DNA of 64,000 nucleotides, from contig JAHLKC010000056.1 of NCBI GenBank assembly GCA_025449115.1, positions 124,001 to 188,000 on the forward strand, given 5' to 3'. Position 1 is the stretch's first letter, and each line of letters opens with the position of its first letter. This stretch comes from Chytridium lagenaria. Its lineage: Eukaryota; Chytridiomycota; Chytridiomycetes; Chytridiales; Chytridiaceae. The translations under genes and the position numbers were made by a program. This document shows positions 39,150 through 61,632 of this stretch, one piece after another. The notes below the pieces were generated by a model. It worked only from the letters and a program-made list of their open reading frames with translations. It made no database searches and was not told where the DNA came from.

Positions 39150-40472
39150 TTACAAGGAGCGGTGGAAAACATAAAAATCATGAGGCAGCGGTAAGAGGGT
39201 GACGGTACGCGCAACTTTGCAGTAACCAGTAAGTAAAAGGTCACCTCTGGAGCCTAACTTCCATGAAGAAGATGATGCGTGAACGAGAGGAGGCCACCAC
39301 GAGTGATAAAGATGAGGGACCACAATCGTGAAAGAGACGGGTAAGGAAATCAGAAAATCGACGCAGGGCCGAAGGAGGGGGAAGGGTGGATAAACGTAGA
39401 GGTGTTCGGTGGGAGAAGCAGGATCCGGGGACCAAGCAAAGAAATTGGTGCCAGCGGAGCCGGAGCATAAATAGCGGGAGAGGAAACGAGAATGTTTGGC
39501 GGTGTGAGGGGAGGCCATGGCGTCCATGGTAAAGGGTCCATGTGCCGAAAGGATCCGGAGAAACGCGGAGGGAACCAAGGAGTAGTCCCCATCAGGGGCT
39601 TCCCGAGAGATATTATCGGCTTCCGTATTCTCATGGCCTGGAACATGGTGAAAGGAAAGGCGTAAACCAGACAACCGCGCCAGTTCAAAGATACGGCGCA
39701 CCTCGGAGTTAATGGCGAGGGAACGGGAAGAGCCCTTGACCAGGGCCTCATAGAGGCCAGAGTTATCAACCCCAATATTCAACCAGTCGCGTTGGGTAGG
39801 AGACCGAAGAGTAGAGGCCAACGACGGAGAGACGTAAATGTCGACGAAGGCCCGGGAAAGGTGAGGAAGGAACGCTTCAAGAGAACGGCGGCAGGCGACC
39901 GCTTCCCGTAGGTTGATAGAGGAGCCTGAGGCGGGGAGGAGGGAAGCTTCAAGGTCGCCCCCGGCTTGAAGGTCAGTGGGGGAGGGAGTGAATGTAAGAG
40001 CGGTGGAAAGGGGAAAAGAAGAGGCCGGTGAAGAGGAGGGAGTTGGAGCAGAGAGGTAAAGATGCCCACCCCAACGGGTATTGCTAGCGTCAGTACGGAT
40101 CGTCAGGATGCGGTGAGCCGAGGTAGCCCAAAGGTATGGGGTGTTAGAGATAACCAACGACATCCAGAGAGAGATCTCGTCGGAAAGGGGTTGCGTAATG
40201 GGAACGGTAAGTGAGGAAGACGAGTGTAAAAGGGAACGTCTGGAAGCGGCAATAGCGAGGTATTGGTGGCGAGTAAAGGACAAACCGCCAGGAACAATAA
40301 GCGAGAGGTGAGCGCATTTGCCGGCAAAGCTCTCCATGAGAGGAAGTGGGGCGGTGTCATCGGACAAGAGGGAGGCGGCGAGGGTAAGGAAAGCCGTCTG
40401 CTTATCCGGGGGGATCGAAAAAGTACGATTAACGAGGTCGACCAGAAAACCAAGGAAACGGAAAGAGGATGA
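39150..40472 (-). pseudogene. RT C-terminus and RNase H of the YR retrotransposon
   Basis: At the Gypsy insertion the minus-strand frame reads 'FRFLGFLVDLVNRTFSIPPD' and 'KQTAFLTLAASL', the typical end of the RT thumb, followed by 'ILTIRTDASNTRWGGHLY' (first RNase H aspartate), 'SSINLREAVACRRSLE' and 'ADNISR'. A further domain follows ('AMASPHTAKHSRFLSRYLCS', 'YVYPPFPLLRPCVDFLI', 'VPHLYHSWWPPL'), as is usual after RNase H in DIRS/Ngaro-type elements. The frame is open over 400 residues. It is the continuation of the RT at 57586-56587, separated from it by the inserted Gypsy element. Confidence 0.8.
40469..40472. repeat. Left target-site duplication (ATGA) of the Gypsy element
   Basis: ATGA directly before the 5' LTR; the same four bases follow the 3' LTR at 56587-56590. 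A 4-bp duplication also fits the solo LTR at 2392. Confidence 0.6.
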
Positions 40473-41410
40473 TGTGAAGAATTACATTATTCACATGGCC
40501 TATGGCTCATAAGGACATTTTGCCTAAGTCCGTTGAGTTCCGTTATATCCCGCATCGACGCGTATATTTACGCGTCATATTGAATCCTCCCTTCTTTTCC
40601 CTTTGGGTTTTTTATATATAGTTTTTCCCCACGTTTATAGGGTTTTTATTGAAGGAGGTGGCGCGCCATATGTGCCGTTTATGTGTGTGTGCATATGTTG
40701 TGTCTATTATTTGTTTGTATTTTGTGTATTACTTTAATATGAGAGATTTCTTGATTTAATTTGTACATGTTGAATCAAGTAGTTGATATGGAGTTGATTC
40801 CCCATCCTCTATCTCACGCCGCGTGGCCTCGCCGTGATCTCCCTTCACTCCTTCTTGGATGGCAGCCCACCCCTCTACCCCCTGCCACCTGGTGAAGCCG
40901 CAATCCAGCTGTTTGAAGCAGAAGGCTGCGATGGGAGCCCAAGGGTCCTCCTCATTGTCAGTGTCCTTTAGCTTAGGCTTGTCGGCTACATTCCACCTCT
41001 GATGTCCCGAGCCGGCTGATCGACCTGCAGGCAGGTGATGAGTGAGGTTACCCTGTGCCAGCTCGTGAGGCAACGAGATCTTCACGTTCCAAAAGGTGCC
41101 ATAGCAGGAAGGCAAGGAGGCTTTCAGCCATCCCCGATCGCCAGGAGACGATCTGGTGCTGATATTGGTTTAGAAGCAAGGTAAGTCGATAATGAAGATA
41201 CTAAAACCGTTCCCATCTCCCTTTTATTTAATAGAACTCGCGAAAACTACCACACACAGCCAAAACAACAACTAACATCACTTAGACGGCGGAGTACATC
41301 CGTCCTTTAGGTGCTCTGTGGACTTGCTCTGCTGGAGCAACTCCTTTACTCTTCTCCCCTACCCCCTAGTCGAAGCTAGGTAGGGAGGGATGGGTCAAGA
41401 GAAGATCACA
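40473..41410 (+). repeat. 5' LTR of the Gypsy element
   Basis: 938 nt, TG...CA ends. It contains a TTTTTTATATATAG TATA-like block near 40608, the likely promoter. It is almost identical to 55651-56586, with differences such as GGCGCGCCATATG here against GGCGCACATATG there. Confidence 0.9.
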
Positions 41411-42723: not shown

Positions 42724-45700
42724 ATGTCAATGTCAGAAACACCCAGCACCGTGCAAAACGATGGAAAGGTTGATAAGACCAAGAAACGTCGTCCAAAGCT
42801 TAATGGTGCTGGGATTCCCGAGAACGCTCGTCTTCTCTCGCTAAAGGCTGGCACGGACCTCCCCATCATCAAGGATCTGTCCAACAACTTTATGGCTCAA
42901 TTTCGAGCCATGAATGCTCTCCTTGGGGTCCCGTTCTGCCACGAGAACATCAATCGATTCATGAGGAACCAGAGACCTCGTCGAAACGGAGAACGAGAAC
43001 GAACCGTACTTTGACGAGGACGAATGCAAAAGGCTTGGGATCTTGATTCTCGACTCCCGCGCCACCGTCGGTCAGCACCAGAAAGCTATGGCTGATGCTG
43101 GTCGTGTACTCCCACCTCCACCTCCTCCTCCGGACGGCCTCCCACTTTAAAGACCGCCAATAAGACGCCTTCAGTCGCTAACAAGCGTGCTCCACTCCCT
43201 ATCAGCGTCGATAATAGTGATGATGAGGACGTTCCCTCTGCTGCATCATCCTCTCGTGTTCGTCATCACGAACGTTTGGGGACCAAATCATCTCGTCATT
43301 CTGACCCTATGGACTGTGATGACGACAATAGTTCTCGTGGTCGTTATACACCTCGTGATATCCGTCGCAACTCTCTCGACGGGATTGGAAGTTCCACTGA
43401 TGACGAGATTTTTCTTCTCGCCTCTGACGATAATCCTTCAGTGTTCGAGGAACTCGAAGGCTCTGATAGGGATGAGGCTATTAGACAGCGTAAAGCCGGA
43501 AACCTCGACCCTCGAGTGCTGGTTACTAAGCGCCCTGGATCTTCCTCTTCCCGCACCACTCCAAAGCCTTCTGGAGAAGCCAGTGCCAACCCCGCGTCTC
43601 GTCGTGAAAAGGAACTTACCAGCAATGGCTCGAAAATCGCCGTTATCCGCTTGATGGTTGATAGATTGAAGGTCCTAGAGCTTGACGTCAGCCTTAGTGA
43701 GCCTCGTTTGGTTCGTGATCCATCTTACCGCAACCATAAGTTGGATTCCGTCATCTCGTTGGTCACGCAGCGACGCCAGTATCTCCACAACACCTCCGTT
43801 AAGATTCGTGCAATGATTGTGGATACCACTGCCCGCATTGGTGCTATTGAGGGTTTCGAACCCTTGAAAGTAAAGGAACTCGCACCAGAAAAGCAATTCT
43901 CTGATGCTTCCCTCGTTGCCATCCGTCGAGAACTGGCCGCCTCTCTCCTCGACAACCAAATGCGTTTGCACGATCTTGAGTCTGGTTTAAAGGAGAGCAG
44001 CTTCATGCCCGCATTGCCTCCTCCGCCTCCAGAACCTCGCCCTCGGCCTTCTGATATGCGCGAGAATATCTCCAAACCCCCTCCTGTCACCAAGATTGCT
44101 GGCAAACCCGTTTTGGACGAGGTTATCAATCTCGTCGACACCACCACTGATACCACGACTGCTTCCCGCGGCTCTGTGAACGCCAGTGACGACGAGTCGG
44201 ACCTATCTGATCACCTCGCCGACCCCCGCCAAGTCAAACCTTTGGTGTCGGGTCCTCCTTTACGTGCTCCTCGTGGCGTTCGTCACCATGGTATGCTCGT
44301 TGACGACCTCACTACTCGCCTGCATCGTCTTGAGTACAAGCCGAAGATTAAAGTGGTTGCCACCTCTTCATCACTCGCCTTGGTTCGTCGACATCTCCCA
44401 CCAGCCGATGCCATGGCCGCCGCTTCAGCTTCAGTCAAGCAGAAGGTGAGCCTCGCAGAATACAAGGCTCGTCTTGTCGCGTCTCGAGAGAAAAACAATG
44501 ACCCCTGTAACGAAGAACGTCGCAAAAGTATTGAGGACGCCGTCGCTTCCCATGCTGCTTGCGTTAAGAAGGCTCATGAGGAGTCTGAAGCTGTGGTTAT
44601 TGACGAATCACCCCTCTCGACGCGTTCCACGTCGCCAAAGTTTTCTCCCATCAGTGCCAAAGCTATGATGCTGGCAGTGATTCTATCACTAGTCCCGAGA
44701 AGGACACCGAATAGGGTTAATGCGATTTATCGCGTTTACCTTTTCACTTTTACTCTTTCTTATAAGTCAAAATAAGTAAACAAAGAAGTACCATAAGAAT
44801 AAAGATAGAGCATTTTATTATCCCAAAACGTGATCTTTATTATACACAAAAACGCGTTAAATACTGCAAAAAACCGAAGATTTTCTTTAAGATTTTCGCG
44901 ATTCTCGCTTGCTGTAGAGTTGAGAAAAGTAAGAGATATGGAGAACTACCCCATTTCACCCTCGAACGCTCTTCTGACGCATTCTTCTTCCAAGCTACAT
45001 TAATCACTGCCATCCATCGTGGTCCAGTGATCCGACAGCCTTACTGGTGGTGTTTTTGTTGCTGCTAACTTTGCAAGCCATTCTGTTCCCCCGCCTTTAA
45101 TCACGACTTTACAGCTTGTGATCGCGATAACTGAGGAAGGATCTGTTCTTTTTCATCCTAGTCTCTTTTCAATTAGCGACATTTTCTTCCCTTCTGTTAC
45201 CTATTCCAGATCAGGTCGCCGTGAGATTGCATCGTTAGATTACCTTGCCTCTCATCGCGATTCCCTATTAATAGGGCTGATCTCGTGCTTCTTTTTCACG
45301 CTGGCCCCGTTATCACGGCCCCACGTCATCTTGAAGCCCCTTTTCATTTGGAGCTTGTCTTGAACCCTCGCGTTGCGACCGTTCTCGCTCCACCAAACCA
45401 CACAGCCCAGGCTTCTGCCTCAGCTGACACTCTTGACGAATCCTTGTCAACATCTGAGTTAAGTGCTACTGCTTTTCAGTCGGCACTCTTTTCTCCCTCC
45501 ATCCAACCGGACTTCTCTCCAGTTGCCGGTATCACTCTTAATCCTCTTGGTTTCCGCCCAAGACCCATTTTATCTCGCCAGGTATTCTCCAACTTGAGGA
45601 GTGCTCGTGATATCTTCCAGAAGCTTTGTCTTCCAGTATTGCTTGGATTCCGCGTGTAAGTGCCCCACCCGCTGAACCCAACGAACCCGACATCCTTGTC

Positions 45701-47288
45701 GTTCCTTTGACTACAGCTCCGACTCCAGTCAACATTCCGACGGCTTCGTCGTCTCTACTTACTGTAACTACTACTTTTAGTCCAGTACAAACAGCTGCTC
45801 CCGTCGATATGTCCGGTGCTGCAGGTCCAGGCGGGTTTTCCCGTTCTTCTTCCTCCGCCTCTTTGGTTGGATTTGGTAAGATTAAAGACGGCATGACCGC
45901 CAAGAGCGCCAAAGATGATATGGCAACCGTGGTTCTGGACTCCCCTCAACCGGCGGCCATTTACCGCTTCATTGCAAAGATTGAGAACATTCTCGATCAG
46001 TATGTTAATGACCCTAACAAACCGGACCTTGCTCGTCCTTTTGATGATCTGGAACACGCTTTTCGCGTTACATGGAATCCAGCCATCAACTTGAAGCCTC
46101 CCGTCGACTCTGGTAGCTCACCTCGTTCCCAGAGCTCAGACGACGTTAGAGCAACTTAAAAAGGTTCTCCGTCGTAATTTTGCACCTAACACCGACGTGA
46201 CTGACCTTGCCACAAAGGTTGAACAGTTTCAGTGGGATACCTCGCGTATGAGCCCACTTGAAGCTTTTAATAATTGACGTATCTTAATACGTCTTTACCA
46301 TCCTCTAACCGTCTTCAAGACGAAAAGCTCAAAGATATCCTTATCCGAGGATGCCAGGATGACCGTTGGAAGTCCCTCGTCAAAAAGGAAACCTTTACCT
46401 CTGGACGTAAAATGGGACAACAAAGACGTCAGCGCCGATGACATCGTCGACCACATGCAACTTCATCACCCTCGTTTGGTGAAATCTTTGGATACCTCCT
46501 CCGAAACTGCCGCCATTGTTCAGGCGTTTTCAGAGAAAATGAGTCCCTGTCTCAAGCAGTCTCTGATGGACAACGCGAAGTTATCCGACTTCGTCGTGAA
46601 ATAAAAAAGACTCCCCAATACTCGCGATAACCTTATGGTTTCATATCGCCGAGAATACCGACCTTCCGTTGCCTTTCCCCAACATGAGCGACGAACTCGT
46701 CAATCGTACGTTAAACACGTACGTTACTACCTTAAACTCCGTCCTCCACTCTGATGGTGATGCCGAGTTATCTGAGGTTGACGTGACTAGCCTTCGCGCT
46801 GACATTGAAATGATTAAGAATGGCGCTCGTGAACCATACCATCGCCAGCCTTACCGTCAGGGGTACCCTCCCCGCAACAACGACTTTGGCAACCGTTCTC
46901 GTCAAAGTAGTTCCAACAGTTTTGATTATAACCGCAGCCGCCAAGGCTCTGGAAACAGCGACCAACGCGGTACTTACACATCATACCCCGCTGGTAACAC
47001 TTCTAATGATGGAGGTAACTCCACCCCTGCTACCATGATACTCATGGTGCCGCCAGTGATCGCCCGGCTACCAGCTCTCCTTCAGCTGGACCGGCTACTC
47101 CCTCTTCTTCTCGTCGATTTCCTGCTCACTATTACCAGCTTTTTGCTTTCGATCCTTTTAGTGGCAGGCCTTTCGCCGAGGTTGAAGACCAAGATGAAGT
47201 TCTGTCTCGCCTGCTTTCATCAGGTAAGATCCCAGACCCTTCATCCCATACTGACTCTATTTTCAATAGCCCAACTCAACAAGCCGTG
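42724..47288 (+). pseudogene. Gag region of the Gypsy element (frame-broken)
   Basis: A series of plus-strand frames: 42724-43014 (basic, 'KTKKRRPKLNGAG'), 43276-44714 (439 acidic and Pro-rich residues), 45118-46159 (ending near 'QYVNDPNKPDLARPFDDLEH'), about 46150-46604 (capsid-like, 'EQFQWDTSRMSPLEAFN', 'VKWDNKDVSADDIVDHM') and 46669-47289 (Asn/Arg/Ser/Gly-rich, nucleocapsid-like, no CCHC knuckle). Position before the protease and the capsid-like 'W(D/N)...SPLEAF' region support gag. At 4.5 kb it is unusually long, and it is broken by at least four frame changes. The roles of the first two frames are unknown. Confidence 0.55.
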
Positions 47289-48740
47289 ATCCCTGAGGTT
47301 CATGAGGTTGTGAAGGCATTTTATGAAGTTCCGTTTCACTTCATATATGCCGTGGGTTGTTATTTCATTGAAAATCTTATGTCAGTGCCCTCCGTAGTAT
47401 GGAATCCAAAGAATAAATGTTTTTCTTTCCCTACTTCTGTCCCTTTTATCGACATTGGTAATATTGTGGATAATTCCACTCCAGACTTACCGCATCCGTA
47501 TATCTACATACCGACGGATGACGATGAACTAGATAAGTTTATTATTGCTTTATTGGCGTATCCAACAGATGCAATCGTAATCACCCAACCTTCAACGCGT
47601 CCATCCGCGTTATCACACTTAACGCAATTAAGCATTAAAAACCCTCTCTTAATTCGGAGTATGCTTCCCAATTTGCATATCCTTTTTCGTGAGCAAAATA
47701 AATATTCAACCGCGTGGTTTGTCTCTTCTAAAACCGACGCCGTATACGTTGATATTATCAACCAAACACATGAACTTGTGCCGGTTACCTCGGAACTTCC
47801 CGTTCCAATACCTCTCACCTTGTACCAAGTCCGTACAATTACGACTACCCCTCCTATTGCGCCGTTTATACGGGCTCTTTTTGCTACGAGCCCCTATATT
47901 CGTCGCCATCGCAACTCTCAACCTATTGCAATCACGAATGCTCTCCGCGAGTCCGCACTTACTCTCGCTTCAAAGAGCATTTCCCTGCCCACCCTCCCTG
48001 ATTATACTCAGATTAATCTTGAGGCTTTCCTTAACAACCCGGGCCCGTCGCTTGCCTTGCATCAAGCTATTGGTTCTGACTCTACGAGTAAAACTCCAAT
48101 AAAGGTGTCCGTTGGTATTAATACACACGTCAGCACTAGCGAAGGGTTTTGCCAAACAGACAACGAACCTCAGGTACTCACTCAGGTGATGACACAGGTT
48201 TCAAACCTTTATGAAATGAGCGTTGCGGAAGCATCAAAGTTCCCCAGAAACTATGTTCACCCAGTAAAATATACTCGGGAAATGGAGTGTCAAACCGATC
48301 CAGTCATCGTCGACGAGATTCCCTCGGAGCTCATTGAGAGTGATACCCCTTGTATAGCTCAGATCTGTTGCAGCCTAGGCGGCATTCATATTGGTGACGC
48401 TTTGGTCGATACAGGCTCTGACGGTAACCTAGTAACCAAATCTCTTTTACGGGATCTTTATTCACGTGGAGTTGAGTTTGATATCACTCCATTTAATTAC
48501 CCAAAGTTCTCTAATGGAATTGGTGGACGCGAGCGTATTCTAGGAATATGCAGACTCAACGTATCTCCTGGAATTACTCCTGGAGTTAGGAAGAAACTTC
48601 CTTTCTATATAGTAGAAAACTGTCCGCGGCCAGTGATTCTTGGCATGCCAACGGTGCAAGCCTTCCACATGGATATTCTAGCTAGTTCTCACAAACTACG
48701 CTACTTCTATTATTCCCCTACTCTAAAGGTAGAAAGGTAA
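47286..48740 (+). CDS. Aspartic protease region of Gypsy pol
   Basis: An open frame of 484 residues. The C-terminal third is a retroviral-type aspartic protease with 'GDALVDTGSDGNLVTKSLL' (catalytic DTGS at 48408-48419), 'FSNGIGGRERILG' and 'RPVILGMPTVQAFHM'. The first 320 residues have no domain I recognise; they include 'PHPYIYIPTDDDELDKFI'. The enzyme would release gag and pol products. Sequence between 48740 and 49880 leads toward RT through several short frames. Confidence 0.75.
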   Translation: MIPEVHEVVKAFYEVPFHFIYAVGCYFIENLMSVPSVVWNPKNKCFSFPTSVPFIDIGNIVDNSTPDLPHPYIYIPTDDDELDKFIIALLAYPTDAIVITQPSTRPSALSHLTQLSIKNPLLIRSMLPNLHILFREQNKYSTAWFVSSKTDAVYVDIINQTHELVPVTSELPVPIPLTLYQVRTITTTPPIAPFIRALFATSPYIRRHRNSQPIAITNALRESALTLASKSISLPTLPDYTQINLEAFLNNPGPSLALHQAIGSDSTSKTPIKVSVGINTHVSTSEGFCQTDNEPQVLTQVMTQVSNLYEMSVAEASKFPRNYVHPVKYTREMECQTDPVIVDEIPSELIESDTPCIAQICCSLGGIHIGDALVDTGSDGNLVTKSLLRDLYSRGVEFDITPFNYPKFSNGIGGRERILGICRLNVSPGITPGVRKKLPFYIVENCPRPVILGMPTVQAFHMDILASSHKLRYFYYSPTLKVER

Positions 48741-49860
48741 AAGCTTACGAGACACCTTTGAAGGTAATAACAAATGGGTTCACTTACAAGAGTAAGTCAC
48801 CCTACATACGAATTGTCCTCGCTAAGGAGGCTCAGTTCGACCCTGATTACGGAACAACCGTGTGGTGTGTTTTGATAGGCTGCCAGACGTTCCTTCGCAA
48901 ACTACACCGTTCTTCCTCGTCAGGACTTTACTGACTTTGACGCGGAAAGGACCGTATACTCACACGCAGACCTGTTTCCCAACGGAATGCAGGCCGTACG
49001 TTGCGACGATGGTCGCCTTGTACCAGACATGGAACCATTCCCTCTACAGGTTGGTCATCGAGGACCTTTCCAACCTCTTTACCACCAGGAACGTGTTTTG
49101 GGTATATTCATGACGACCCTAAACAACAGTTCACTGACTTCATCCCCATCATGAGGATGATCAGGATGACCCTGCGCATGCCTCTATATCAAAACAGAGG
49201 TCACCGCAAATAGCGGATTAAAACACTCCAAGATTTTGGAAACCATCTCAACCTTCTCATTAATGGCATTGGTGCTGTTGATGACGATGGTAAGAGAAAG
49301 TCAGCCGTGCTGACACCCGCCGCCTTCTTAGGAAGAGCAGCGATAAAGGGAAGTACCCCAAAGTAACGTACTTCTACCTTACAAAGCTTGAAAAAGCGAA
49401 ACTGCCACCAGAGGAGTCTCGAGACCCCCTCTTGGATGTGCCCGACACGGATATCCTGACTTCCAAAAGGAGTTAGATCCCGTTGACGAAGGATACGGCT
49501 CAATGCCTGATATTCCCCCTCTTCCTGACTTTGTCACAAAAGCTCTGCTGGAAACTCCAGCTGACGATGGCCCTGATTTGGAAGAGCCCTCCCGTCATAG
49601 ACCTCATGACACCACGAATGAGGATCGCATGGATTACCTTAAGAATATGGATCCTATATCCACTGAGGATCTCTGAAGAAGTTTGATCTTCAGCACATTA
49701 CTGATATGCAACTGCGTGAGCGACTCATCCAGTTCTTGTCAATTCCTAAGAACGCTGATGTCTTTCGTGAATACGTTAGAACAGGCACAAAGGACCCTGG
49801 TTACCATACCATTGAAACAAAACCATATTCTCGCCCTCCCAACATGGCTCCTTACCCGTT
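48741..49860 (+). other. Spacer between protease and RT of the Gypsy element, frame-broken
   Basis: About 1.1 kb with short plus-strand frames that change phase repeatedly. The translated fragments are acidic (for example 'LLDVPDTDILTSK' region) and match no domain I know. It corresponds to an unusually long linker ahead of RT. Confidence 0.4.
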
Positions 49861-51080
49861 GGTTTAGAGCGCGCTAAGATCATCCGCGACCATGTCGAGG
49901 AAATGCTGAAGACTGGCGTCATCAGGAAGTCACGCTCTCCTCACGCATCTCCCGTGTGTCTCGCGAAAAAGAAGGACGGTGCTGACAGATTCTGCACTGA
50001 CTTTCGTCGTTCAATGAGATACAATAAAGGATAAGTATCCTTTACCACGCATTGATGAGACCTTTGATCGGTTAGCCGGGATGTGTCTCTTCTCATCCCT
50101 TGATCTCCTCTCAGGCTTTTGGCAATACCTGTAGCCCCAGAGGATCGTCACAAAACTGCCTTTGTTACCCCAGATGGACTCTATGAGTACAACGTGATGC
50201 CCTTTGGCCTCACAAATAGTCCACCAACTTTCCAGAGATGCATGGACTTAGTCCTTGCTGGAATAAAGTGGATCAAATGTATGGTGTACATTGACGATAT
50301 TATCATATTCTCAACGGATGTGGATTCCACTTCGAAAATCTTCAGCTTGTATTTGATAGACTATAGAGTACAACCTGAAGCTTAAGCCTAAGAAGTGTCA
50401 GTTCCTTTTCAAGGTCTTACCCTTCCTGGGTCATATCGTCTCTGAAGATGGATAAAAGCAGATCCTGATAAGCTTGTGAAGCTTGAAGATTGGCCTGTAC
50501 CAAAAACAGTCAAGGATATTCAACGATTCCTTGGTTTCACTAATTATTTTCGACGATTTGTACCCAACTTTACTGACGTCGCAAAACCATTATATGATCT
50601 CACTCGCAAAGAGATCTCATTTGACTGGACTGCCTCCTGTGAAGCAGCCTTTCGACGCTTGATAGATATACTCAAATCTGAGGTACTATTAGTAACTCCA
50701 TTACCAGACGATAAGTTCGTTATATCTTGCGATGCTTCTAAGTACGCAATTGGTGCTGCGCTTTTTGTGAATCGCGACGGCATATACCATCCTGTAGCTT
50801 TTGCTTCACGCACGTTGAACGATGCTGAGCAGAACTACTCTAACACTGACCGCGAGGGTCTCGCTGTTGTGTGGTCTTCAAACCTCTTTGAGACTTACAC
50901 ATGGCGCAAACCATACCGCATTGAGACTGATCACTCAGCCTTAATCCCCTGTTTGCTAGAGGTGACCTGAAGGGCCGCTTTGCCGATGGTCATACTCTCT
51001 ACAGGATCATGAGATTGAGTTGGTTCATGTTCCCGGCAAGAGCCAGGCCGTTGCCGACGCTCTCTCACGCAGCTTCAAAC
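49861..51080 (+). pseudogene. Reverse transcriptase and RNase H of Gypsy pol
   Basis: RT begins 'LERAKIIRDHVEEMLKTGVI' and 'RKSRSPHASPVCLAKKKDGA', then '[12 protein letters not shown]' (motif A aspartate), 'YNVMPFGLTNSPPTFQR' and 'MVYIDDIIIFS' (catalytic YIDD at 50287-50298), then 'RFLGFTNYFRRFVPNFTDVA'. RNase H follows with 'FVISCDASKYAIGAALF', 'YSNTDREGLAVVW' and 'HVPGKSQAVADALSR'. All are classic Ty3/Gypsy signatures. Frame changes occur at about 50030, 50130, 50340-50450 and 50965, so a continuous pol is not readable as written. Reverse transcription occurs in the virus-like particle. Confidence 0.85.
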
Positions 51081-51796
51081 CCCCAAAGCCTATACCTGAT
51101 GATGACTCAGAGGTTGGTGACTTCCCTGAGACCGCCCCTCGAGTCTTTATCGGAAAAGATGCTAAAGTTAAGAACAAAGAACTTTTGCAAACTATAACTT
51201 CTGCGCTTAGCATTGATTATACCCACCCACCCGCCCATGTCTTTTCTCCTTCTCAAAAACGGGAGTTTGGATCTGATCGACCATTGCTTTCCAGTGAAGT
51301 TATCTTCCCTGAACAGCTCATTGACAATGTCTTCGTCAGGATAAAGTCATCTCGATTGAAGGACATTCTCGAGAGACGCAGACTATTTGAATATCAAAAA
51401 CGGGAGTTCACAGGAACTACCCGTTTCTGGATTTGCCAGGTGCCTGATCCTGAGGTCAACTCCTCTCGCGCACCTAGGCACATACCTGGACAAATTACCC
51501 ATGTCATAACAGTTAATGCTGGTATACCACCAGATGCTGTAAACTACCCAGTGCCTGACACTGGTCCAAAATCTCTAAGTAGTTTTCATGCTTATGAAAT
51601 ACTTGAGATACGTGAGCTCTTCTCACCCCTCAATGAAAAGAGGACAACTGCAGACTCACTCCCATCTCTACGCGAGATATATGGCGTTGAGAGAACGACG
51701 GCTCTGCCTGATGTTCCTTCTCGTATGATCCACGACTTCCCACCAGAGTCAATGAAAAAGTTATATCCGATTGATGATATACATACACCATTCCGC
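51081..51796 (+). CDS. Unassigned pol linker between RNase H and the ExoIII-like domain
   Basis: About 235 residues read in the same open frame (51020-51997) as the end of RNase H. Sequence includes 'VFIGKDAKVKNKELLQTITS', 'TRFWICQVPDPEVNSSRAP' and 'GQITHVITVNAGIPPDAVNY'. I recognise no domain. It occupies the place where Ty3/Gypsy elements usually have only a short tether before integrase. Confidence 0.5.
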
Positions 51797-52630
51797 TCTT
51801 CCAAGTTGAAGATTATAAGTTGGAATGTGAAAGCCTTCAAGCTCTTGTTAAGAAACACTTTGCAAAGAGAATTGAAGGTGATGAATCCAATAGAGCAGAG
51901 TTCTTTGCTAAATATTTGGATGAAATGGAATGTGACATCGCCTGCTTCCAAGAGACTATGGTCGGCGATGGTCACGAAAAGTTTTGGCAACAACTGAAGT
52001 CCGTCCGCGGATGGAAGATGTATGCTGACGACAAAAGAAATGGACACAATGGTGTTATGACCATGGTCCGCGAAGATATCCCCGTACTTTCAGTAATATG
52101 TGGGACTCATATGATGCGCACTGACTTCGACGACTTTGTTGAAGAGGGACGGTGCCTTACTCTCTGCCTTTTAGGTATGAATATAGTGAACGTCTATGCG
52201 CCAAATGGCACGAGGCATGATCACAGACAGGAATACAAGATGAAGTTCCTGGAACGACTACATACTTTTGTAAAGAGCCTCAAAGCTCAGTCAAATACAA
52301 TTGTTGTAGGCGATTTCAATATTGCTCACAAAGCAATTGATGTTCGAGAACCATCCAGATTTTATGGATACTCTGGATTCCGCAACGATGAACGCTACTG
52401 GCTTAGCTCATTCATTAATTTAGGTTTTAAGGATGGATTTCGTCATAGCCATCCGCATATGCCAGGATATACTTGGCATGACCCAACAGAGTTCTATAAA
52501 GCTGTTTGGAGATAGACTACGCCTTTGTAGATAAACGAATTCCTTGTAAATGGAATGTCAACCACCATTTTGTGGCGTCACTGACTGACCATGAAATGGT
52601 TGAATTGGTCTTAGAGCACAGCGATGCTCA
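51797..52630 (+). CDS. ExoIII/ExoA-type AP-endonuclease domain within Gypsy pol
   Basis: A full exonuclease III-family fold can be traced: 'LKIISWNV' (metal/phosphate Asn), 'YLDEMECDIACFQETM' (catalytic Glu at 51952-51954), 'WKMYADDKRNGHNGVMTMV', 'EGRCLTLCLLGMNIVNVYAP' (Tyr), 'TIVVGDFNIAHKAIDV' (Asp and Asn at 52312-52320), 'GFRNDERYWLSSFINLGFKD', 'YTWHDPTEFYKAVWR' with 'IDYAFVDKR', and 'SLTDHEMVEL' (Asp-His pair, 52584-52592). All active-site residues of the family are present. The GDxNxAHxxIDxxxP segment is nearer to bacterial-type ExoA than to LINE endonucleases. The N-terminus is in one open frame with the linker after RNase H, and the C-terminus in one open frame (52506-53132) with the integrase zinc domain, so it is part of pol. 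One-base frame breaks occur near 51830 and 52510. Confidence 0.85.
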
Positions 52631-53949
52631 CCACAACGATTATGACAACATGATCTCATTACCGGCACTTGACCAAGTACCTGATCAAGAGCCGCCGCAC
52701 GAAGCCCCAAACAACCCCGGGCCTTCTGCACATGATAGGAATTCAAATACTGTTCCCAATGCTTTCATGGCTAATGGACAGATATCTGGTGACTTTATTA
52801 AAGCCCAAAGAAATGACTTGAGATTTGCCAACGTCATCAAGTTCCTAGAGAAAGGAATCCTTCCTGAGGATCCTGATCTAAGAAAGGGTGTTTTAATGAA
52901 TGCCCAGAATATGGTGATGCGTGGTAGAGTTCTCTACCGTGTACTCTATGTGAAGGACTACCTCATGCGACGATCGCCAGTGCGAGTCGCTTTATGTATC
53001 CCCACAAGGCTTCAGGATGTTGCGTTGGACGCCGTCCATGATGATATGATGGCTGGAGGACACCTCGGTGTTCGCAGACTTATCGCCACTACCCTAGATA
53101 GGTTCTGGTGGCCTACTATCCAAAAGACTTAGAGGCATATATACGACGATGCCTACATGTCAACAGTCTAAAGATAACTTGACTAGAAAAGGTGCCGTGA
53201 GGCCCATACCCTTTGGTCATAGACCTTGGGATCGTGTTGCCATTGATATTGTTGGTCCTATGAACATTAGCCAACGTGGCAACAAGTATATTGTTGTCCT
53301 CACGGACTACTTTACCCGTTGGGCTGATGCTTTTGCCGTCCCCGACTTAGAAGCAAACACCATTGCTAGAATAGTTGTTGAGCAATGCTTTTGCCGCTTC
53401 GGCATCCCCTTGACCTTACACTCGGATCAAGGACAACCATTTCCTAGTGACCTCTTTAAGAGAGTTGCTACTGTACTAGGAATGAAACAATCCTTCTCTA
53501 TGCCGTATTGGCCTCAGGCCAATGGTTTAGTTGAACGAACAAACAAAACCTTATGCCAGATGATACGTGCATATATAAACCAAAGAACACATGACGATTG
53601 GGATGAAATACTCCCCTATGTGTTGTTTGCATACAGAACAACGGTCCACCAGACCACAAATGAAACCCCATTCATGATGATGTTTGGCCGCGAGGCGTTT
53701 ACGCCGGCTGACCTCAAGTTTGGTTATCCCACAGACGATGTGTTTGCGGAAGAATATCCTGACCCACGATTATGGGCTCAGACAGGAGAAGAACCTCTGA
53801 TAGCTGTTTCCACCACTAGAGGCACTGCAGAGGCTCTTCCTAAAATACTTGCTATGTTCTCTGAACAGCTGCACTTCTTTGACGGTCGCTTAGCACGAGC
53901 CGCTCATGACTTGCTCGGACTGATGGTCGAGAGCCTTACTTGCTCATAG
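52631..53949 (+). pseudogene. Integrase zinc-binding and catalytic core of Gypsy pol
   Basis: The zinc-binding part has 'VHDDMMAGGHLGVRRLI' and 'RFWWPTIQK' and, after a one-base break near 53130, 'CPTCQQSK' (HHCC). The core has 'RVAIDIVGPMNISQRG' (Asp, 53244), 'LTLHSDQGQPF' (Asp, 53424) and 'QANGLVERTNKTL' (Glu, 53533), a D,D35E arrangement, then 'FAYRTTVHQTTNETPFMMMF'. The C-terminal part after 'FGYPTDDVF' is an added segment. Integrase would insert the cDNA into the genome. Confidence 0.85.
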
Positions 53950-55547
53950 CTGACGTCCTTAAGAAATATGGTTATGATCTATTTTACCTTGTCCACATCC
54001 ACTCGATGAAGAGACTTGGACACACCTTCCAATGGAGATCCTTTGGAAGGAATGAATCTTCCCAGATGCATTCGTTAACTCGTAAAGCGAAAACGACTTT
54101 GCATGGGAAAGAAAAGGACGCCTATGTATCCATTATTCATAATGGCTGTATGACCGAACGCCCACATCTGCGTGACAGTTACCCCATATTTGTTGACAAC
54201 GCCATGAACTTATATGTCAACAACACTCTGGTACTTTCCCCAGATATTATACACCTCAATGCTGGCCGTCCCCTTGTTGACGATGGACCTGCACGACATG
54301 TTAGAATCATTGACCTTAAAGTCAATGACGATCAGGACGATTATATTTCCCCTGAAGATGATATAGACACTGACACACATGTGAGTGTGCTCATGAATAC
54401 TCGACAAGCCCTTCAGGACTTTGTCAAAGAATCCCTCAACGATGATGATGATCGTTTAGAGGCTAAAGATTATGTTACTCAGCTCGCTGCTAGGCTAGCC
54501 TATTCAAAGGCCGTACTCTTGCGTGCAGAACTCAAACGCAAGAGACGAGCACAACAAAATAAACCCAGTCGCAACAAACACTCGTTTGATGTTGGTGACC
54601 TGGTATGGCTCTCTGTTCCCTTGAAGACTGAACGTCGAGGGAAAGAGAACAAGAATGCCCCCACTAAGAAGTTCCAATTTAGATGGGCTGGCCCTATGCG
54701 TGTCCTTAGTAAATCTATGGACAGCAATAGATACACAGTTGTAGAGCTCCTCCCTGGAGGCCAGCTCTTATCACGACTTGCTAATGCTGCTAGACTCCGA
54801 CCATTTGAGTCTTTGCCGCCTACAGAAACTGCTAATGCTGCATCTGCAGAAGTAGCTTCAGATGACTTTGCTGCTGAGATTGCAGCATGGAAAGAACTCC
54901 AAGTTATTAGACGCATGCCTAAGAATAAGGTAGCTGTTGGAGTTAATCGCGAACTGTTTCGACGATTCGATGAAGAAGTCGCTGATGCCGACTATAATGA
55001 TCCTGAGTTCTATGTTGAGAAACTGGATTATCATACTTATGATACTCATAACAAAAAGTATAAGTATTATGTTAAATGGCTCGGTCATGGAACCGCGCAT
55101 AACCTTCTAATGGATGAAGAGGCTTTACCCCCATCCATAGTTAAAGATTACTGGGACCGTGTTGCTAAGACACAGCCCACGGCATATGCTCTAAGAGTAG
55201 TGTACGAAAAGAATGCTGGCCGCAAGAGACTTGCGCCTAAGCCCATATCCTACACGATGCCTGAAGATAATGATGGTTATCGTAGTGAGGATGAAAATGA
55301 AGGTATCCTTGATGATACCCCTCATAGCCCCATAAAAAAACGTAAGCGCAAGGCTAAACGTACTCTACGGCAGGCTGTACCCATAGATTCTGATGACCAG
55401 AATGCTATTGATAATGAAGTTCCTCATTTGGAACCTGATATAGATAATAATCTGAATGATGATTATCCTGATAAAAACTTTGAAGTACCTTTAGCTATAG
55501 AAATGCTAGATGGTAACAATTATGTAACTCTTGCCATGGCCTTATAG
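53940..55547 (+). CDS. Integrase C-terminal domain and chromodomain of Gypsy pol
   Basis: A 535-residue open frame. Its first 200 residues are an unassigned insertion relative to ordinary chromoviruses. Then 'HSFDVGDLVWLSVPLK' and 'FQFRWAGPMRVLSKS' form the SH3-like integrase C-terminus, and 'EFYVEKLDYHTYDTHNKKYK' with 'YYVKWLGHG' and 'PPSIVKDYWDRV' form a chromodomain. A lysine/arginine cluster ('KKRKRKAKR') near the end may be a nuclear localisation signal. Chromodomains direct integration to particular chromatin. Stop at 55545-55547, about 100 nt before the 3' LTR. Confidence 0.8.
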   Translation: MLIADVLKKYGYDLFYLVHIHSMKRLGHTFQWRSFGRNESSQMHSLTRKAKTTLHGKEKDAYVSIIHNGCMTERPHLRDSYPIFVDNAMNLYVNNTLVLSPDIIHLNAGRPLVDDGPARHVRIIDLKVNDDQDDYISPEDDIDTDTHVSVLMNTRQALQDFVKESLNDDDDRLEAKDYVTQLAARLAYSKAVLLRAELKRKRRAQQNKPSRNKHSFDVGDLVWLSVPLKTERRGKENKNAPTKKFQFRWAGPMRVLSKSMDSNRYTVVELLPGGQLLSRLANAARLRPFESLPPTETANAASAEVASDDFAAEIAAWKELQVIRRMPKNKVAVGVNRELFRRFDEEVADADYNDPEFYVEKLDYHTYDTHNKKYKYYVKWLGHGTAHNLLMDEEALPPSIVKDYWDRVAKTQPTAYALRVVYEKNAGRKRLAPKPISYTMPEDNDGYRSEDENEGILDDTPHSPIKKRKRKAKRTLRQAVPIDSDDQNAIDNEVPHLEPDIDNNLNDDYPDKNFEVPLAIEMLDGNNYVTLAMAL

Positions 55548-55650
55548 ACTTGCCGATAATGCAAGCTTTGATATATTTACAGATAGTTCTTATACTTCTG
55601 ACAGCTAAGTTAGACTTTTCTACGTAAGTCTTTTCTTAAAAACGGGAGAA

Positions 55651-56586
55651 TGTGAAGAATTACATTATTCACATGGCCTATGGCTCATAAGGACATTTCG
55701 TCTAAGTCCGTTGAGTTCCGTTATATCCCGCATCGACGCGTATATTTACGCGTCATATTGAATCCTCCCTTCTTTTCCCTTTGGGTTTTTTATATATAGT
55801 TTTTTCCCCACGTTTATAGGGTTTTTATTGAAGGAGGTGGCGCACATATGTGCCGTTTATGTGTGTGTGCATATGTTGTGTCTATTATTTATTTGTATTT
55901 TGTGTATTACTTTAATATGAGAGATTTCTTGATTTAATTTGTACATGTTGAATCAAGTAGTTGATATTGAGTTGATCCCCATCCTCTATCTCACGCGCGT
56001 GGCCTCGCCGTGATCTCCCTTCACTCCTTCTTGGATGGCAGCCCACCCCTCTACCCCCTGCCACCTGGTGAAGCCGCAATCCAGCTGTTTGAAGCAGAAG
56101 GCTGCGATGGGAGCCCAAGGGTCCTCCTCATTGTCAGTGTCCTTTAGCTTAGGCTTGGTCGGCTACATTCCACCTCTGATGATCCCCGAGCCGGTGATCG
56201 ACGCTGCAGGCAGGTGATGAGTGAGGTTACCCTGTGCCAGCTCGTGAGGCAACGAGATCTCACGTTCCAAAAGGTGCCATAGCAGGAAGGCAAGGAGGCT
56301 TTCAGCCATCCCCGATCGCCAGGAGACGATCTGGTGCTCATATTGGTTTATAGCAAGGTAAGTCGACATAGAAGATACTAAAACCGTTCCCTTCTCCCTT
56401 TAATTAAGCAGAACTCGCGATACTCACCCACACCATCGCCAAACAACAACAACATCACTTAGATCAGGAGTACATCCTGTCCCTAGGTGCTCTGTGGACT
56501 TGCTCTGCTGGAGCAACTCCTTTACTCTTCTCCCCTACCCCCTAGTCGAAGCTAGGTAGGGAGGGATGGGTCAAGAGAAGATCACA
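55651..56586 (+). repeat. 3' LTR of the Gypsy element
   Basis: 936 nt, TGTGAAG to GATCACA, preceded by the purine tract AAAAACGGGAGAA and followed by ATGA. Near-identical to the 5' LTR. Confidence 0.9.
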
Positions 56587-57586
56587 ATGAAGAGGTAAAG
56601 TGGATTTGTAACGAGACGTAGTAAACCTGTTAGGATACACACAAGGCACCAAATGGTAGCGGCATCCCCCCCGCACAAGAAGGGTACATGAGGCTTGGAG
56701 AGAAGGACCAACAGCGGCATCATCAATCCAGATTAACGCCGGAATTTGCCAAGCGCGAACGTAACAGGTGAGAGCGACGGCCATAGTTTGCGTAATGTAT
56801 GGAGACGGCGACCAACCAAATACCAGAACCGTAGAGACCAGGTAGTAATCAATGCCGTCGATGGTAGCAATGGTACCAAAATATTGATAACTGGAGGGGT
56901 GGAGAGGGATGTTGTTGAAACAACTGGCGATATCAATGACGGCGGCGGAGTGGGAGGTCCAGTAGGTCAAGGCTTGGATACCCTCCATCGTGAAAGGGAG
57001 GGGTTGCATCCAACAGTTCAAAGAGTACAGTCGTCGCATTTGCGGGGCTTGGTGGGCTCGATCAGGATAGGTTTACCATGTAGAGGTTGGAAGGAAAACC
57101 GGCTGATACCGGACCCACAATGCGACGGGCACCCGACTGGAGATCCTTGGCGGTAGAGGTGGCAACGAAATCGAGGAAAGGCGCTGGTACAGGGTAAGAG
57201 GGAGCAACCCCACGGGGAGGTAGATCGGCTGAGTAATGGCGACCGCGATAGACGCCATCAAACGGTTGGATGAAGTCTTCGACGCGGACACCCTCTGCGA
57301 CCCATCGGTGAATCAGAGCCGCCTCGCGAGGGGGTGAGTAAGCGAGGATTTCCTCCCACATGGGAAGGGTTGAAGAATTAACGCATCCCGCCACAAAAGC
57401 CGACGGGTTAGGGAAGGGTATGTCGTGCGGTGTTGAATGAGAGGAGCCATTGAGAAGACTGGAGAGTCGAGAGTGAAGCGAGGCGCGGGTTGGGGGCGGA
57501 GTAGGCGTACCATCGGATAAACACCACAATGATGGTGTTGGAGGCTGGACAATGGAATACACGAAATAAAATAAAGTGGAATACAA
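56587..57586 (-). pseudogene. Reverse transcriptase core of the YR retrotransposon
   Basis: Minus-strand frame 57586-57062 gives the N-terminal RT part ('LIHRWVAEGVRVEDFIQPFD', 'PPRGVAPSYPVPAPFLDF', 'SGARRIVGPVS'). A frame change near 57050 leads to 'MRRLYSLNCWMQPLPFTMEG', 'AAVIDIASCFNNIPLHPSS' (motif A Asp), 'VFGWSPSPYITQTM' and 'IPALIWIDDAAV' (catalytic DD). The 'NxWMxxLPF' segment is of the Ngaro/PAT type. The frame is then cut at 56587 by the Gypsy element and resumes at 40472, with one base difference in phase. Confidence 0.75.
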
Positions 57587-57640
57587 ATGTATTAATATTT
57601 GATGTTAACATAAACAAGAAAAGGAGGGTGGGCAAGGCAA

Positions 57641-59181
57641 CTAAGTAGAGCAGTGGAGCCGAGCACAAACCGCACTAGTAGCGCTGGGCTTCGAACAACG
57701 GTTTGAACAGTCTCGTCCATAGTGACCACGTTTTTTGCAGTGGCCGCAAACATTCTGGTCGGTGGGTGGTTTTGGGAGTGAAGACATAGAGGTCTTGGTG
57801 GTACCCACCGGGGCCGAACGGGAATCCGACGAAGAACCCGACGCCGGGCGCTCGTAAGGTGTCTGGGCGAGGCGGCGGGAGTGGGTGATCTTCACAGCAT
57901 TACCAAGTTGGCGAGACTCGTTTAATATAGCAGCCGCCAGAAGGGAAGCGTCTGGATTGGGCAAGCGCCAACCCAGGATATTGATAATGGCGGAAAGCTC
58001 GTTGCGGAGTGGAAGAAACTCCCCGTCGGCTAAGCGGAAGTGGGAGCGGTTAAGGAGGGTCTTCCAAGCCGACGATTGAGCCGGGCTGAGGCACCGGCAA
58101 TCCACCCCAATGTCGTGAAGGATGGAGAGGCGACCATAGAAAGCATCACGCGAGCGGATCCAAAAGGGCGGAGGGTCCCGTTCATTAGAACGAAGGAACT
58201 CGGCAGCCTCAGACCGGAAAGTACGCAAGGCCTGGGCATAGATAGCGACGTGCTATAAAGGAAGGTGGTAAGAAAAAGGGCGGTGGGGAAAGCATAGGCG
58301 GTGGTATGTAGAGTTGGGGCGGGAATCCAAGCAAACCATGTGCCATGAAAGGGATGGCGGGGGTATGCCAGGAGCTGGCGAGGGTTGCCAGGGGCTAGCG
58401 GGGGTGTGCCAGGAGCTGGCGGGGGTGTGCCAGAAGCTGGCGGGGGTGTGCCAGGAGCTGGCGGGGGTGTGCCAGGAGCTGGCGGGGTGTGCCAGGAAAG
58501 GAGAGGACGCAAGGTGTGCGTAGGGAGGAAATGACGAGTCAAATCCGAGATGGACCAAAGGCCATAAATATGAAAAGAAGGTATAATAAAAGAGATTTAC
58601 AAAGGAAATGTAGTATACATACAGGTACGTAGGGATCCTCGGAAAAGATGTCCGTATCGCGGATAAACTGACCAATATCAATCACCGAAGAAGGAGGAAC
58701 GGTCGGAGTGCGCGGTGAAAGACGAGAACGGGATTCGAGTTCCAAGGCAGCGATACGCTCTTGATGAGCACGAATAATCGCTTCAGCATCAGCCAATTCC
58801 CTACGGGCGAGAACGAGAGGATCCGGAGCCCCGTTGTCTGGATTGATAACATTAGGGGGAGGGATAACGGGGGGTGGATTAGGCGCGATTAACGGATGAT
58901 CAGCGGCCCCCCCCCCGTTAACCAGTGCTTGATTGACTGGATTACCAACAAAAGCGGTGAGGTTAGTGACGGGATCGACCGCGGGACGAGGAATAATAGC
59001 CGAGAGGGCCGTCATGATGCGAGGACGCATAGCTAAAAGCCCTTTCGGCCAAGGACGAGGCATTCCAATTGCCGTTGCGACGTTTTTGAGAGCGGTGTAG
59101 GAAAGGACGCTCACAAGCACACCATCCCAAGTGGTAAGGTGAGCGTCCAGTGGTGGGGGTGGTGGTGGTAAATCGTCCATC
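57641..59181 (-). pseudogene. Gag of the YR retrotransposon, with CCHC zinc knuckle
   Basis: Frame 1 (from ATG 59181, MDDLPPPPPPLDAHL, to about 58620) has 'VLVSVLSYTALKNVATAIGM' and a coiled segment ('ARRELADAEAIIRAHQERIA'). A possible intron starting GTATGT at about 58622 spans a minisatellite. Frame 2 (58228-57641) has 'LGWRLPNPDASLLAAAILNE' and the zinc knuckle 'CGHCKKRGHYGRDC' (C-X2-C-X4-H-X4-C). Gag would form the particle. Whether 58620-58250 is intron or coding is not decided by the sequence. Confidence 0.6.
58355..58500. repeat. Minisatellite of about 7 units of 20-21 bp
   Basis: Tandem copies of GCCAGGAGCTGGCGGGGGTGT with single-base variants, inside the gag region of the YR element. 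The unit contains the palindrome CCAGGAGCTGG-like core. There are no unique spacers, so it is not a CRISPR array. Confidence 0.85.
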
Positions 59182-59201: not shown

Positions 59202-59370
59202 ACAAGGCAACTTAACTGCACCGGGTGTGCAGTTGAGTTGGAGAAAATGAAGAAGTTGTCCTTCATTTTCTCAACTCACCGATACCTTATGCACATAATG
59301 TCCGACTATGTTCGGACATTGTGTAACACAAGGTAACTTTGGTGAGTAGAGCGAATTCTGGAGATTATGT
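59202..59370 (-). repeat. Repeat A1 of the YR retrotransposon (5' end)
   Basis: 169 nt that appear identical to A2 (37397-37565). It abuts host intron sequence TTTTTTTCAG that ends at the acceptor of exon 8 of copy D. Confidence 0.85.
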
Positions 59371-59380
59371 TTTTTTTCAG

Positions 59381-60204
59381 TCGCTTGCAGAAGATCTGGT
59401 GAACGCGTCAGATGCCAACGTCGGCCATGAGGGCGGTGTGGATTTTGCAGAAACGGAGGGCGACCTGGAAGCCGACGCTGGGCTGATGGCCACAATGAAT
59501 GTCCGCAAAGACAGAAGCGAGACGACTGCGGAGATGGCCGCGGATGCCGGCGAGGAGGTTATGGTTAGCTCCTCTCTTCCACATGATTGTTCTTCTTCTT
59601 CTTCCTTTGTGACAAATTAACGTTTTAATGCGCGACTCATTTTTTTCATATATTTTTTATTTTCAGTCGCTTGGCGAAGATCTGGTGAACGCATCAGACG
59701 TTCACGTCGACCATGAGGGCGGTGTGGATGTTGTAGAAACCGAGGACGCTGTGGAAGCAGAAGTTGAGCTCGTGGCCACTGCGAATGTTCCCGTGTACCT
59801 GGAGGAAGGCGGTGATGACTTTACGGTTAGTTTTTCTATCATGCGTAATATTGTTCTTAGCAGTGATGCTGATTTTATAATCCTTTAGTTACTTGGTCAA
59901 CGTGTCCATGAACCAACTCCCGCGACTTCTCCCGCTAGTAACGTAGACATCACTGAGCCTGTCAAGAACGAGGCTGTCACCATTGAGGAACAATCCGAGG
60001 ATATTGGCCATATGATTGTGAGTCCCGTTTGCTAAAACCGTTCTCGTATGTCTAACTTTGATTTTTTAGATGCTTGCTGAGAGATACGCGCTCCACGGTC
60101 GCTCGCGACGGGGGAATGGCTGCAGAGGCTCTAGGAATGGCAGGCAACCCCCTTCGCAGGAGGAGCTTCGTCGCATTGCGTTGGTAACGAGGTTTAAGAA
60201 GTAG
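59381..60204 (+). CDS. Copy D of the modular acidic family, 3' half (exons 8-11), intact
   Basis: Exons 59381-59563 (61 codons), 59667-59825 (53 codons), 59889-60017 (43 codons) and 60070-60204 (45 codons with TAG). All introns are phase 0 and GT-AG, and there is no frame break. Exons 8 and 9 both begin 'SL(A/G)EDLVNASD' and are duplicates. Exon 8 ends like exon 7 of copy A ('ETTAEMAADAGEEVM'), so it is a hybrid made by unequal exchange. The last exon reads 'MLAERYALHGRSRRGNGCRG' and then a basic tail ending RFKK. The 5' half lies 22 kb away across the nested transposons. Confidence 0.7.
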
Positions 60205-60306: not shown

Positions 60307-61632
60307 ATGCAAGGGAGGCCGTCGTCTCGGGTCCAACCACCCCTTTCCATCTTACCTCTAGAGTTACGGCACAAGATCCTTCGCCTCACAGAGGATGTTG
60401 AACTCAACGTTACCATAAAGCTTGAATGCCTTTGGCTGGATTTGCCCAGACTTCACCCTTCCGACCCAACAACGGCATTTGACCGTCTCCATCCAGCTTC
60501 ACAATACTTTCCCATCTCCGTGGAGATTGCTGAAAAACTCGATAATGAACTTATCAACATCACAGACGAAAGTACTGCCATAATTGCTTGGCACATTCGA
60601 TATCAACAACGCAGGTTCTACATCTATTTGCACGAGGTGGCAGAACATGGCCGGTTAAAAGTCATCCAAATGTTTCATCGTTTCCGGTCAACTCTGTTCA
60701 GTTCCAATGTCATGGATGGAGCTTGTAGGAATGGTCACATTGATATCGTTAGATTTCTTCACACCTACCGCTCGGAAGGGTGCTCTACGGCCGCGATGGA
60801 CGAAGCGGCAGAGAATGGTCATTTGGAGGTGGTGCAATTTCTGCACGAGAATCGAACGGAAGGCTGTACAGTAGCTGCCATGGATGGAGCAGCGGCCTAC
60901 GGGTATTTAAATGTGGTTATATTCTTGCATGAAAATCGAGACGAGGGTTGCTCCAAAATGGCAATGTGTCGTGCTGCAAGATCTGGGTGTTTGGATGTCG
61001 TTCAATTCTTACACGAAAACAGGACGGAAGGATGCACCAGAAAAGCAATGGAGTGGGCGGCCGCCAGTGGGCATCTTGATGTCGTCAAGTTTCTTCATGA
61101 GAATAGGACGGAAGGAGGCGGGACGGGTGCGATGGATTGGGCAGCTGATAACGGGCAACTGGAGGTCTTGAGGTTTCTTCATGAAAACAGAGGAGAAGGT
61201 TGTACTGTTAATGCAATGAACTGGGCGGCCTTGCATGGACATTTGGAGGTCGTGGAGTTTTTGCATAATAATCGAAGTGAGGGCTGCACGACTGCTGCGA
61301 TGGATGGGGCGGCTAAAAACAGACATTTGGAGGTTGTTATATTCTTACATGAGAACAGGAAAGAAGGCTGCACGAAAGGTGCGATGAATTTCGCTGCAGA
61401 GGCTGGATGGTTGGCTGTGGTTCGATGGTTGCATGAAAACCGAACAGAAGGTTGCACGGCTTGGGCCATGGACAGCGCAGCTTCGTATGGAGACTTGGAG
61501 ATGGTTCGGTTCCTAGTTGAAAATCGAACAGAGGGATGTGTCAAGGATGCTCTTGCTAGGGCTGCTGAGAATGGACATGATGAGATAGTGGTGTTTTTAA
61601 GGAGCAATCTCAGAAAGTGCCCGCAGGCCTAG
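60307..61632 (+). CDS. F-box-like and ankyrin-type repeat protein
   Basis: A single intact exon of 441 residues. The N-terminus 'PLSILPLELRHKILRLTEDV' resembles an F-box-like start. From about residue 115 there are about 11 repeats of roughly 29 residues with core 'GHLEVVxFLHENRTEGCTxxAMDxAAxN'. They are ankyrin-like, but shorter than the usual 33. No transmembrane segment or signal peptide. Such arrays bind protein partners; with an F-box-like head the protein might act as an ubiquitin-ligase adaptor, which is inference. It starts about 100 nt after the stop of family copy D. The frame is unbroken over 1.3 kb, in contrast to most neighbours. Confidence 0.75.
   Translation: MQGRPSSRVQPPLSILPLELRHKILRLTEDVELNVTIKLECLWLDLPRLHPSDPTTAFDRLHPASQYFPISVEIAEKLDNELINITDESTAIIAWHIRYQQRRFYIYLHEVAEHGRLKVIQMFHRFRSTLFSSNVMDGACRNGHIDIVRFLHTYRSEGCSTAAMDEAAENGHLEVVQFLHENRTEGCTVAAMDGAAAYGYLNVVIFLHENRDEGCSKMAMCRAARSGCLDVVQFLHENRTEGCTRKAMEWAAASGHLDVVKFLHENRTEGGGTGAMDWAADNGQLEVLRFLHENRGEGCTVNAMNWAALHGHLEVVEFLHNNRSEGCTTAAMDGAAKNRHLEVVIFLHENRKEGCTKGAMNFAAEAGWLAVVRWLHENRTEGCTAWAMDSAASYGDLEMVRFLVENRTEGCVKDALARAAENGHDEIVVFLRSNLRKCPQA

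Follow-up and report, generated by a model that had tools for sequence, protein, structure and literature searches.

Apurinic/apyrimidinic (AP) endonucleases are a hallmark of many retroelements without long terminal repeats (LTRs), and LTR elements integrate by means of a DDE integrase. Added enzymes have been described in LTR elements of the Ty3/Gypsy type (Metaviridae). According to the accessible text of PMC2864245, PMC5408684 and PMC6431247, Gypsy elements of fungi, rotifers and planarians hold in pol a captured dUTPase, an enzyme of nucleotide or DNA quality that acts on nucleotides and, in rotifers and planarians, lies between protease and reverse transcriptase (RT). Large Gypsy elements of orchids carry an m6A demethylase (2-ODD) as an additional open reading frame (accessible text of PMC9289625). 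We examined a 64,000-nucleotide stretch of Chytridium lagenaria DNA (C56:124001-188000, hereafter the window) that contains a Ty3/Gypsy element whose pol includes an ExoIII/AP-endonuclease domain, preceded by a predicted ASCH-like domain, between RNase H and integrase. The added enzyme is a nuclease within pol, and the element is fungal, unlike those of orchids. It shares with AP endonucleases of long interspersed nuclear elements (LINEs) a superfamily and residence in a retroelement, and differs in belonging to an LTR element with its own integrase. Among the matches listed from open full-text literature, a scope that leaves subscription journals and Repbase outside, none described Gypsy pol with an AP endonuclease or an ASCH domain, and the accessible text of PMC3248453, PMC10799480, PMC2864245, PMC6431247, PMC5408684, PMC9289625, PMC6338049 and PMC3411680 reports neither domain there. 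Relative to this literature, the combination is new.

The window element occupies 40473-56586 (16.1 kb) and is flanked by the 4-bp target duplication ATGA. The direct repeats that bracket it have a spacing of 15.2 kb, carry TG..CA-type ends (TGTGAAG...GATCACA) and agree at 888 of 931 aligned bases (95.4%; Kimura two-parameter distance 0.048; 19 transitions, 24 transversions). Pfam domains at 47.3-53.9 kb followed the order Asp_protease_2, RVT_1, RT_RNaseH, Exo_endo_phos, Integrase_H2C2 and rve. Paired LTRs, a short target-site duplication, the order protease-RT-RNase H-integrase with an H2C2 domain, and an RT whose top match was Ty3 place the element in Ty3/Gypsy, with the protease scoring below the Pfam cut-off; the added module (nuclease only in a second lineage, B) and the 16.1-kb length set it apart from that group. 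It has both LTRs and a DDE integrase, which LINEs lack. The original prediction, made from the bare sequence, had named a Ty3/Gypsy chromovirus. The first part of that label stands; the chromovirus part was not secured, as the chromodomain fell below the cut-off of 25.1 bits both in the genomic copy L009 (20.7 bits, E 0.00041) and in the window copy (E 0.49).

The presence of an ExoIII nuclease domain in pol is near certain. The nuclease piece 51820-52512 matched 54 distinct solved sequences, with Bacillus subtilis ExoA (5cfe, 8.4e-25) at the top. The catalytic residues N, E, Y, D, N, D, D and H, checked against what we take to be the APE1 numbering, were all present and conserved. The window copy retains them across three frames: N in 51020-51997; E, Y, D and N in 51820-52515; D and DH in 52506-53132. 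Two intact copies passed the curated NCBI ExoIII model TIGR00633 (L012 159.9 and L010 153.4 bits; cut-off 99.05) and did not reach the stricter TIGR00195 (148.6 and 142.0 bits; cut-off 182.55). Structure prediction recovered the ExoIII fold; the closest folds were general repair enzymes, and the best structural matches included AP endonucleases, a DNA uridine endonuclease and exonucleases. Domain order, PDB matches and the residue check bear out the original prediction of a complete ExoIII nuclease between RNase H and integrase, and its proposed likeness to ExoA agrees with top sequence and fold relatives of the ExoA/Mth212 type. Its statement that both joins are in open frame was also right, with the qualification that frameshifts keep the window copy from being a single open reading frame. 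It had overlooked these frameshifts, the ASCH-like domain and a second, distant Gypsy lineage with the nuclease. The retrotransposon nuclease is a candidate for AP-site cleavage.

The nuclease recurs at the same position in many copies and families within the 42-Mb assembly (356 contigs), where counts of domain loci are lower bounds. At least 138 matches to the window-copy nuclease were listed, one copy being able to give several. The longest frame among copies, 2573 codons in L009, holds RT, RNase H, nuclease, H2C2, rve and the weak chromodomain, and L010 likewise has one uninterrupted frame through all domains. By hit coordinates genome-wide, 48 of 84 H2C2 hits carry a same-strand nuclease 232-583 bp upstream; of the other 36, 26 show the usual Gypsy arrangement, with RNase H 199-496 bp upstream, and for 10 neither domain lies in range. 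Where nuclease and RNase H were both found, the gap from RNase H to H2C2 measured 1222-1411 bp in lineage B and 1894-2545 bp in lineage A, the lineage with the ASCH-like domain, with a single locus (in contig C135) at 1467 bp. Merged nuclease loci numbered 79, with RNase H and integrase at 30, RNase H only at 5, integrase only at 18 and neither in range at 26.

Copies lacking the domain were also sought. A nuclease lay within 1.2 kb of 42 of 49 lineage-A integrase loci, and the remaining seven were all without RNase H at the ordinary distance. Three of these were read: the locus in C3 keeps the nuclease end after all (97% to L015), that in C155 shows only a short weak match adjoining the integrase in the 1.3 kb read upstream, and that in C131 has hits to RNase H and to the nuclease on the same strand, 7-9 kb upstream, perhaps separated from the integrase by an insertion. 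LTR pairs of the window family also bracket nuclease copies in C76 and C105, at spacings of 15.1-15.2 kb, and in C16, at 13.6 kb, and at least 40 near-full matches to the window LTR have 92-100% identity (40 of 254 candidates scored). In the large Ty3/Gypsy elements of lineage A, a fixed module joined in frame separates RNase H from integrase; in it, an ASCH-like domain is followed by a complete ExoIII domain. Separately, two LTR pairs of this family stand 6.3 kb apart (C131:86457-93708 and C49:46679-53887), each with a nuclease hit inside; these are perhaps shortened elements that retain the nuclease.

Two Gypsy lineages, distant from each other, carry the nuclease. Lineage-A RTs were 66-89% identical to that of L009 over aligned pieces, 32% and 35% identical to the ordinary Gypsy RTs L051 and L052, and 29% identical to the two lineage-B copies aligned over about 400 residues. 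Ty3 was the top PDB match for the RT of both lineages (A, 2.6e-79; B, 7e-20). In lineage B (L022, L023, L024, L027 and L028) the nuclease follows shortly after RNase H, leaving no room for the ASCH-like part. No lineage-B LTRs were found in five 10-kb stretches.

The ASCH-like domain of lineage A is a conserved segment between RNase H and nuclease whose predicted fold is of the ASCH/YTH (PUA-like) type; it looks like a putative nucleic-acid reader. Five linker pieces gave no match to Pfam ASCH up to E 10, and the segment had no sequence match in Pfam, NCBIfam or PDB. It differs from known ASCH, EVE and YTH domains in this respect and in lying within a retrotransposon polyprotein. No ASCH protein was found in six bacterial genomes, and phage proteins were therefore used for comparison: hhalign against 10 phage ASCH-type proteins gave a probability of 55.7% over 30 columns and a score of 32.4, with 200 column shuffles scoring at most 20.4.

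The nuclease is kept by purifying selection. Ratios of nonsynonymous to synonymous change (dN/dS) were 0.042 (L011-L016), 0.093 (L012-L013) and 0.056 (L022-L023), and the integrase gave similar values in the last two pairs (0.102 and 0.047). The linker between RNase H and nuclease showed 0.301 (L012-L013) and 0.297 (L010-L014), and the spacer between nuclease and integrase 0.345 (L012-L013) and 0.109 (L022-L023). Because the linker takes in the ASCH-like part, that domain seems to be evolving more quickly than the nuclease. In the remaining copy pairs, silent sites were too diverged for dN/dS, or nearly so.

Sequence searches favour a link to prokaryotic ExoIII enzymes of the ExoA/Mth212 type. 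A profile search found 448 proteins (top 1.1e-44). Identity to the 120 free-standing relatives listed, which unlike the nuclease here are not part of a retrotransposon polyprotein, was 26-34%; the entries with a name were called exodeoxyribonuclease III, and wherever an organism was given it was a bacterium or an archaeon. A scan of prokaryote genomes added six bacterial loci at 25-28% identity. In a tree of 47 rows, lineage-A nucleases formed one group (support 100/99), the two lineage-B nucleases another (100/100), and the LINE-type endonucleases of the genome stood apart (99/99). The approximately unbiased test rejected neither a single A+B clade (p-AU 0.191) nor a clade of lineage A with the LINE-type rows (p-AU 0.336); lineage B was one long row in the second tree. 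The trees therefore decide neither the number of captures (one or two) nor the donor. Their rows were drawn from protein hits, which biases donor inference towards those hits, and the only eukaryotic free-standing enzymes were three APE2-group rows. The six LINE-type rows were labelled by eye; all six later matched Exo_endo_phos_2 (Endonuclease-reverse transcriptase), four above the cut-off. Capture of a repair gene, as originally proposed, is plausible, and a LINE link remains compatible with the trees.

Comparable fusions were sought elsewhere in collections that may hold few transposon proteins. A polyprotein query found one 933-aa protein with RVT_1 and Exo_endo_phos among 2898 candidates, another query picked out 3 proteins resembling AP endonucleases from 397 candidates, and viral contigs yielded no matching proteins. 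Precomputed annotation of the 933-aa protein (P0001, outside the window) lists RVT_1, Exo_endo_phos, PF24698, PF13655 and PF08388. We take the last two to be group II intron maturase families; P0001 possibly joins an RT of group II intron type to a nuclease of ExoIII type.

With a probability of about 0.5, we read the module as a whole, ASCH-like plus ExoIII, as acting on cDNA of the element itself, ahead of integration. The nuclease would be made together with RT, RNase H and integrase, freed by polyprotein cleavage, and work alongside RT and integrase. It would cut the cDNA at abasic sites, perhaps uracil-derived, and clear 3' ends that are blocked or frayed, allowing synthesis to be completed and integrase to receive clean ends; the ASCH-like domain may help to hold or recognise nucleic acid. 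AP-site cutting and 3'-end clean-up of cDNA would be the simplest use of an ExoIII enzyme at that place. Such a role matches dUTPase capture by other Gypsy elements, which may address the same kind of problem (PMC2864245, PMC5408684 and PMC6431247, in their accessible text). Several points weigh against it. The substrate could instead be target DNA or RNA. Ordinary Gypsy elements of the same genome manage without the module, and the window copy is itself broken, with two frameshifts in the nuclease and a split RT and integrase. In the pair L010-L014, where changes were very few, the nuclease dN/dS was 0.28. The alignment used for folding the nuclease included 33 free-standing relatives, so the match in fold does not stand apart from that in sequence.

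Another possibility is that the nuclease serves mainly as an RNase H-like or 3'-5' exonuclease, in tRNA primer removal or cDNA end trimming, and not as an AP endonuclease. ExoIII enzymes have such side activities, and the module is placed after RNase H and before integrase. Against this, the element already encodes an RNase H, and AP endonucleases and a DNA uridine endonuclease stand beside exonucleases among the best structural matches; we consider this reading doubtful. Somewhat less probable is nicking or preparation of chromosomal target DNA in the manner of LINE AP endonucleases, with the ASCH-like domain perhaps directing the nuclease to bases that are damaged or modified. With a DDE integrase, LTRs, a purine tract and a 4-bp target duplication all in place, no separate nick is needed, and the closest folds are general repair enzymes; of the three functions first suggested, target nicking is the least supported. 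A broader proposal would make the ASCH-like reader and ExoIII a modification- or damage-guided nuclease in pol, sensing uracil, abasic sites or modified bases, whether in cDNA or where the element integrates, coupling processing to integration, and gained independently by lineage A with the reader and lineage B without it. We regard this as speculative and unlikely.

A role in antiviral defence has been suggested for accessory domains of retrotransposons (accessible text of PMC6338049), and the module might degrade competing nucleic acid while being dispensable for transposition. Its fixed place within pol and purifying selection similar to that on integrase make this very improbable. Least credible is a nested insertion, in which a LINE or other element brought the nuclease into a Gypsy element. 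Fungal complex LTR elements built by multiple insertions are described in the accessible text of PMC3248453, and the clade of lineage-A and LINE-type nucleases was not rejected. The open frames running without a break through L009 and L010, and the narrow spacing in 48 hits, nonetheless rule out a nested LINE and confirm the fused module first proposed. Integrase-like selection in two pairs and the occurrence of the nuclease in two lineages also speak against nesting, as does the absence of the genome's LINE-type tree loci from matches to the window-copy nuclease at E <= 0.001.

Features of the Ty3/Gypsy element in the window (positions within the window)
Feature	Position	Strand	Evidence or remark
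Target-site duplication ATGA, left copy	40469..40472	.	right copy 56587-56590
5' LTR, 938 bp	40473..41410	+	direct-repeat alignment
gag-region open frame, 499 aa	43276..44775	+	Pfam: no match
Aspartic protease domain, inside open frame 47286-48740	48375..48650	+	Asp_protease_2 0.00041, 21.4 bits, below cut-off 24.3
Reverse transcriptase fragment, RT split by frameshifts in window copy	50119..50385	+	RVT_1 1.2e-15
RNase H region	50476..50970	+	RT_RNaseH_2 1.2e-27, RT_RNaseH 2.3e-24
ASCH-like (PUA-fold) domain, predicted, between RNase H and nuclease	51296..51799	+	
ExoIII/AP-endonuclease domain, active site complete, two frameshifts in window copy	51806..52618	+	Exo_endo_phos 6.4e-11
Integrase H2C2 zinc domain	52998..53135	+	Integrase_H2C2 1.2e-7
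Integrase catalytic core	53218..53511	+	rve 1.8e-13
Possible chromodomain, weak	55014..55160	+	E 0.49
Purine-rich tract preceding 3' LTR	55636..55650	+	sequence
3' LTR, 936 bp	55651..56586	+	LTR alignment
Target-site duplication ATGA, right copy	56587..56590	.	

The element was inserted into an older minus-strand element, whose flanks once joined give a 453-aa open frame across the site and which presumably resembles a DIRS-type retroelement. This interrupted element covers 39150-40472 and 56587-58225 on the minus strand, with RVT_1 (6.6e-6, below cut-off) at 56542-57036. Elsewhere in the window, an open frame at 29410-30441 has an animal haem peroxidase domain (8.4e-32), a 441-aa open frame at 60307-61632 has many ankyrin repeats, and 59370-59788 holds two direct 133-nt copies that are 81% identical, with a start-to-start distance of 286 bp.

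A selected and, by its sequence, catalytically complete ExoIII nuclease in the pol of an LTR element breaks the division between non-LTR and LTR elements. Its presence points to damage in the cDNA, or the quality of 3' ends, as a factor that limits such elements. Together with the ASCH-like domain, it would form a compact fusion protein of natural origin in which RT and integrase are joined to a repair nuclease and a putative reader.
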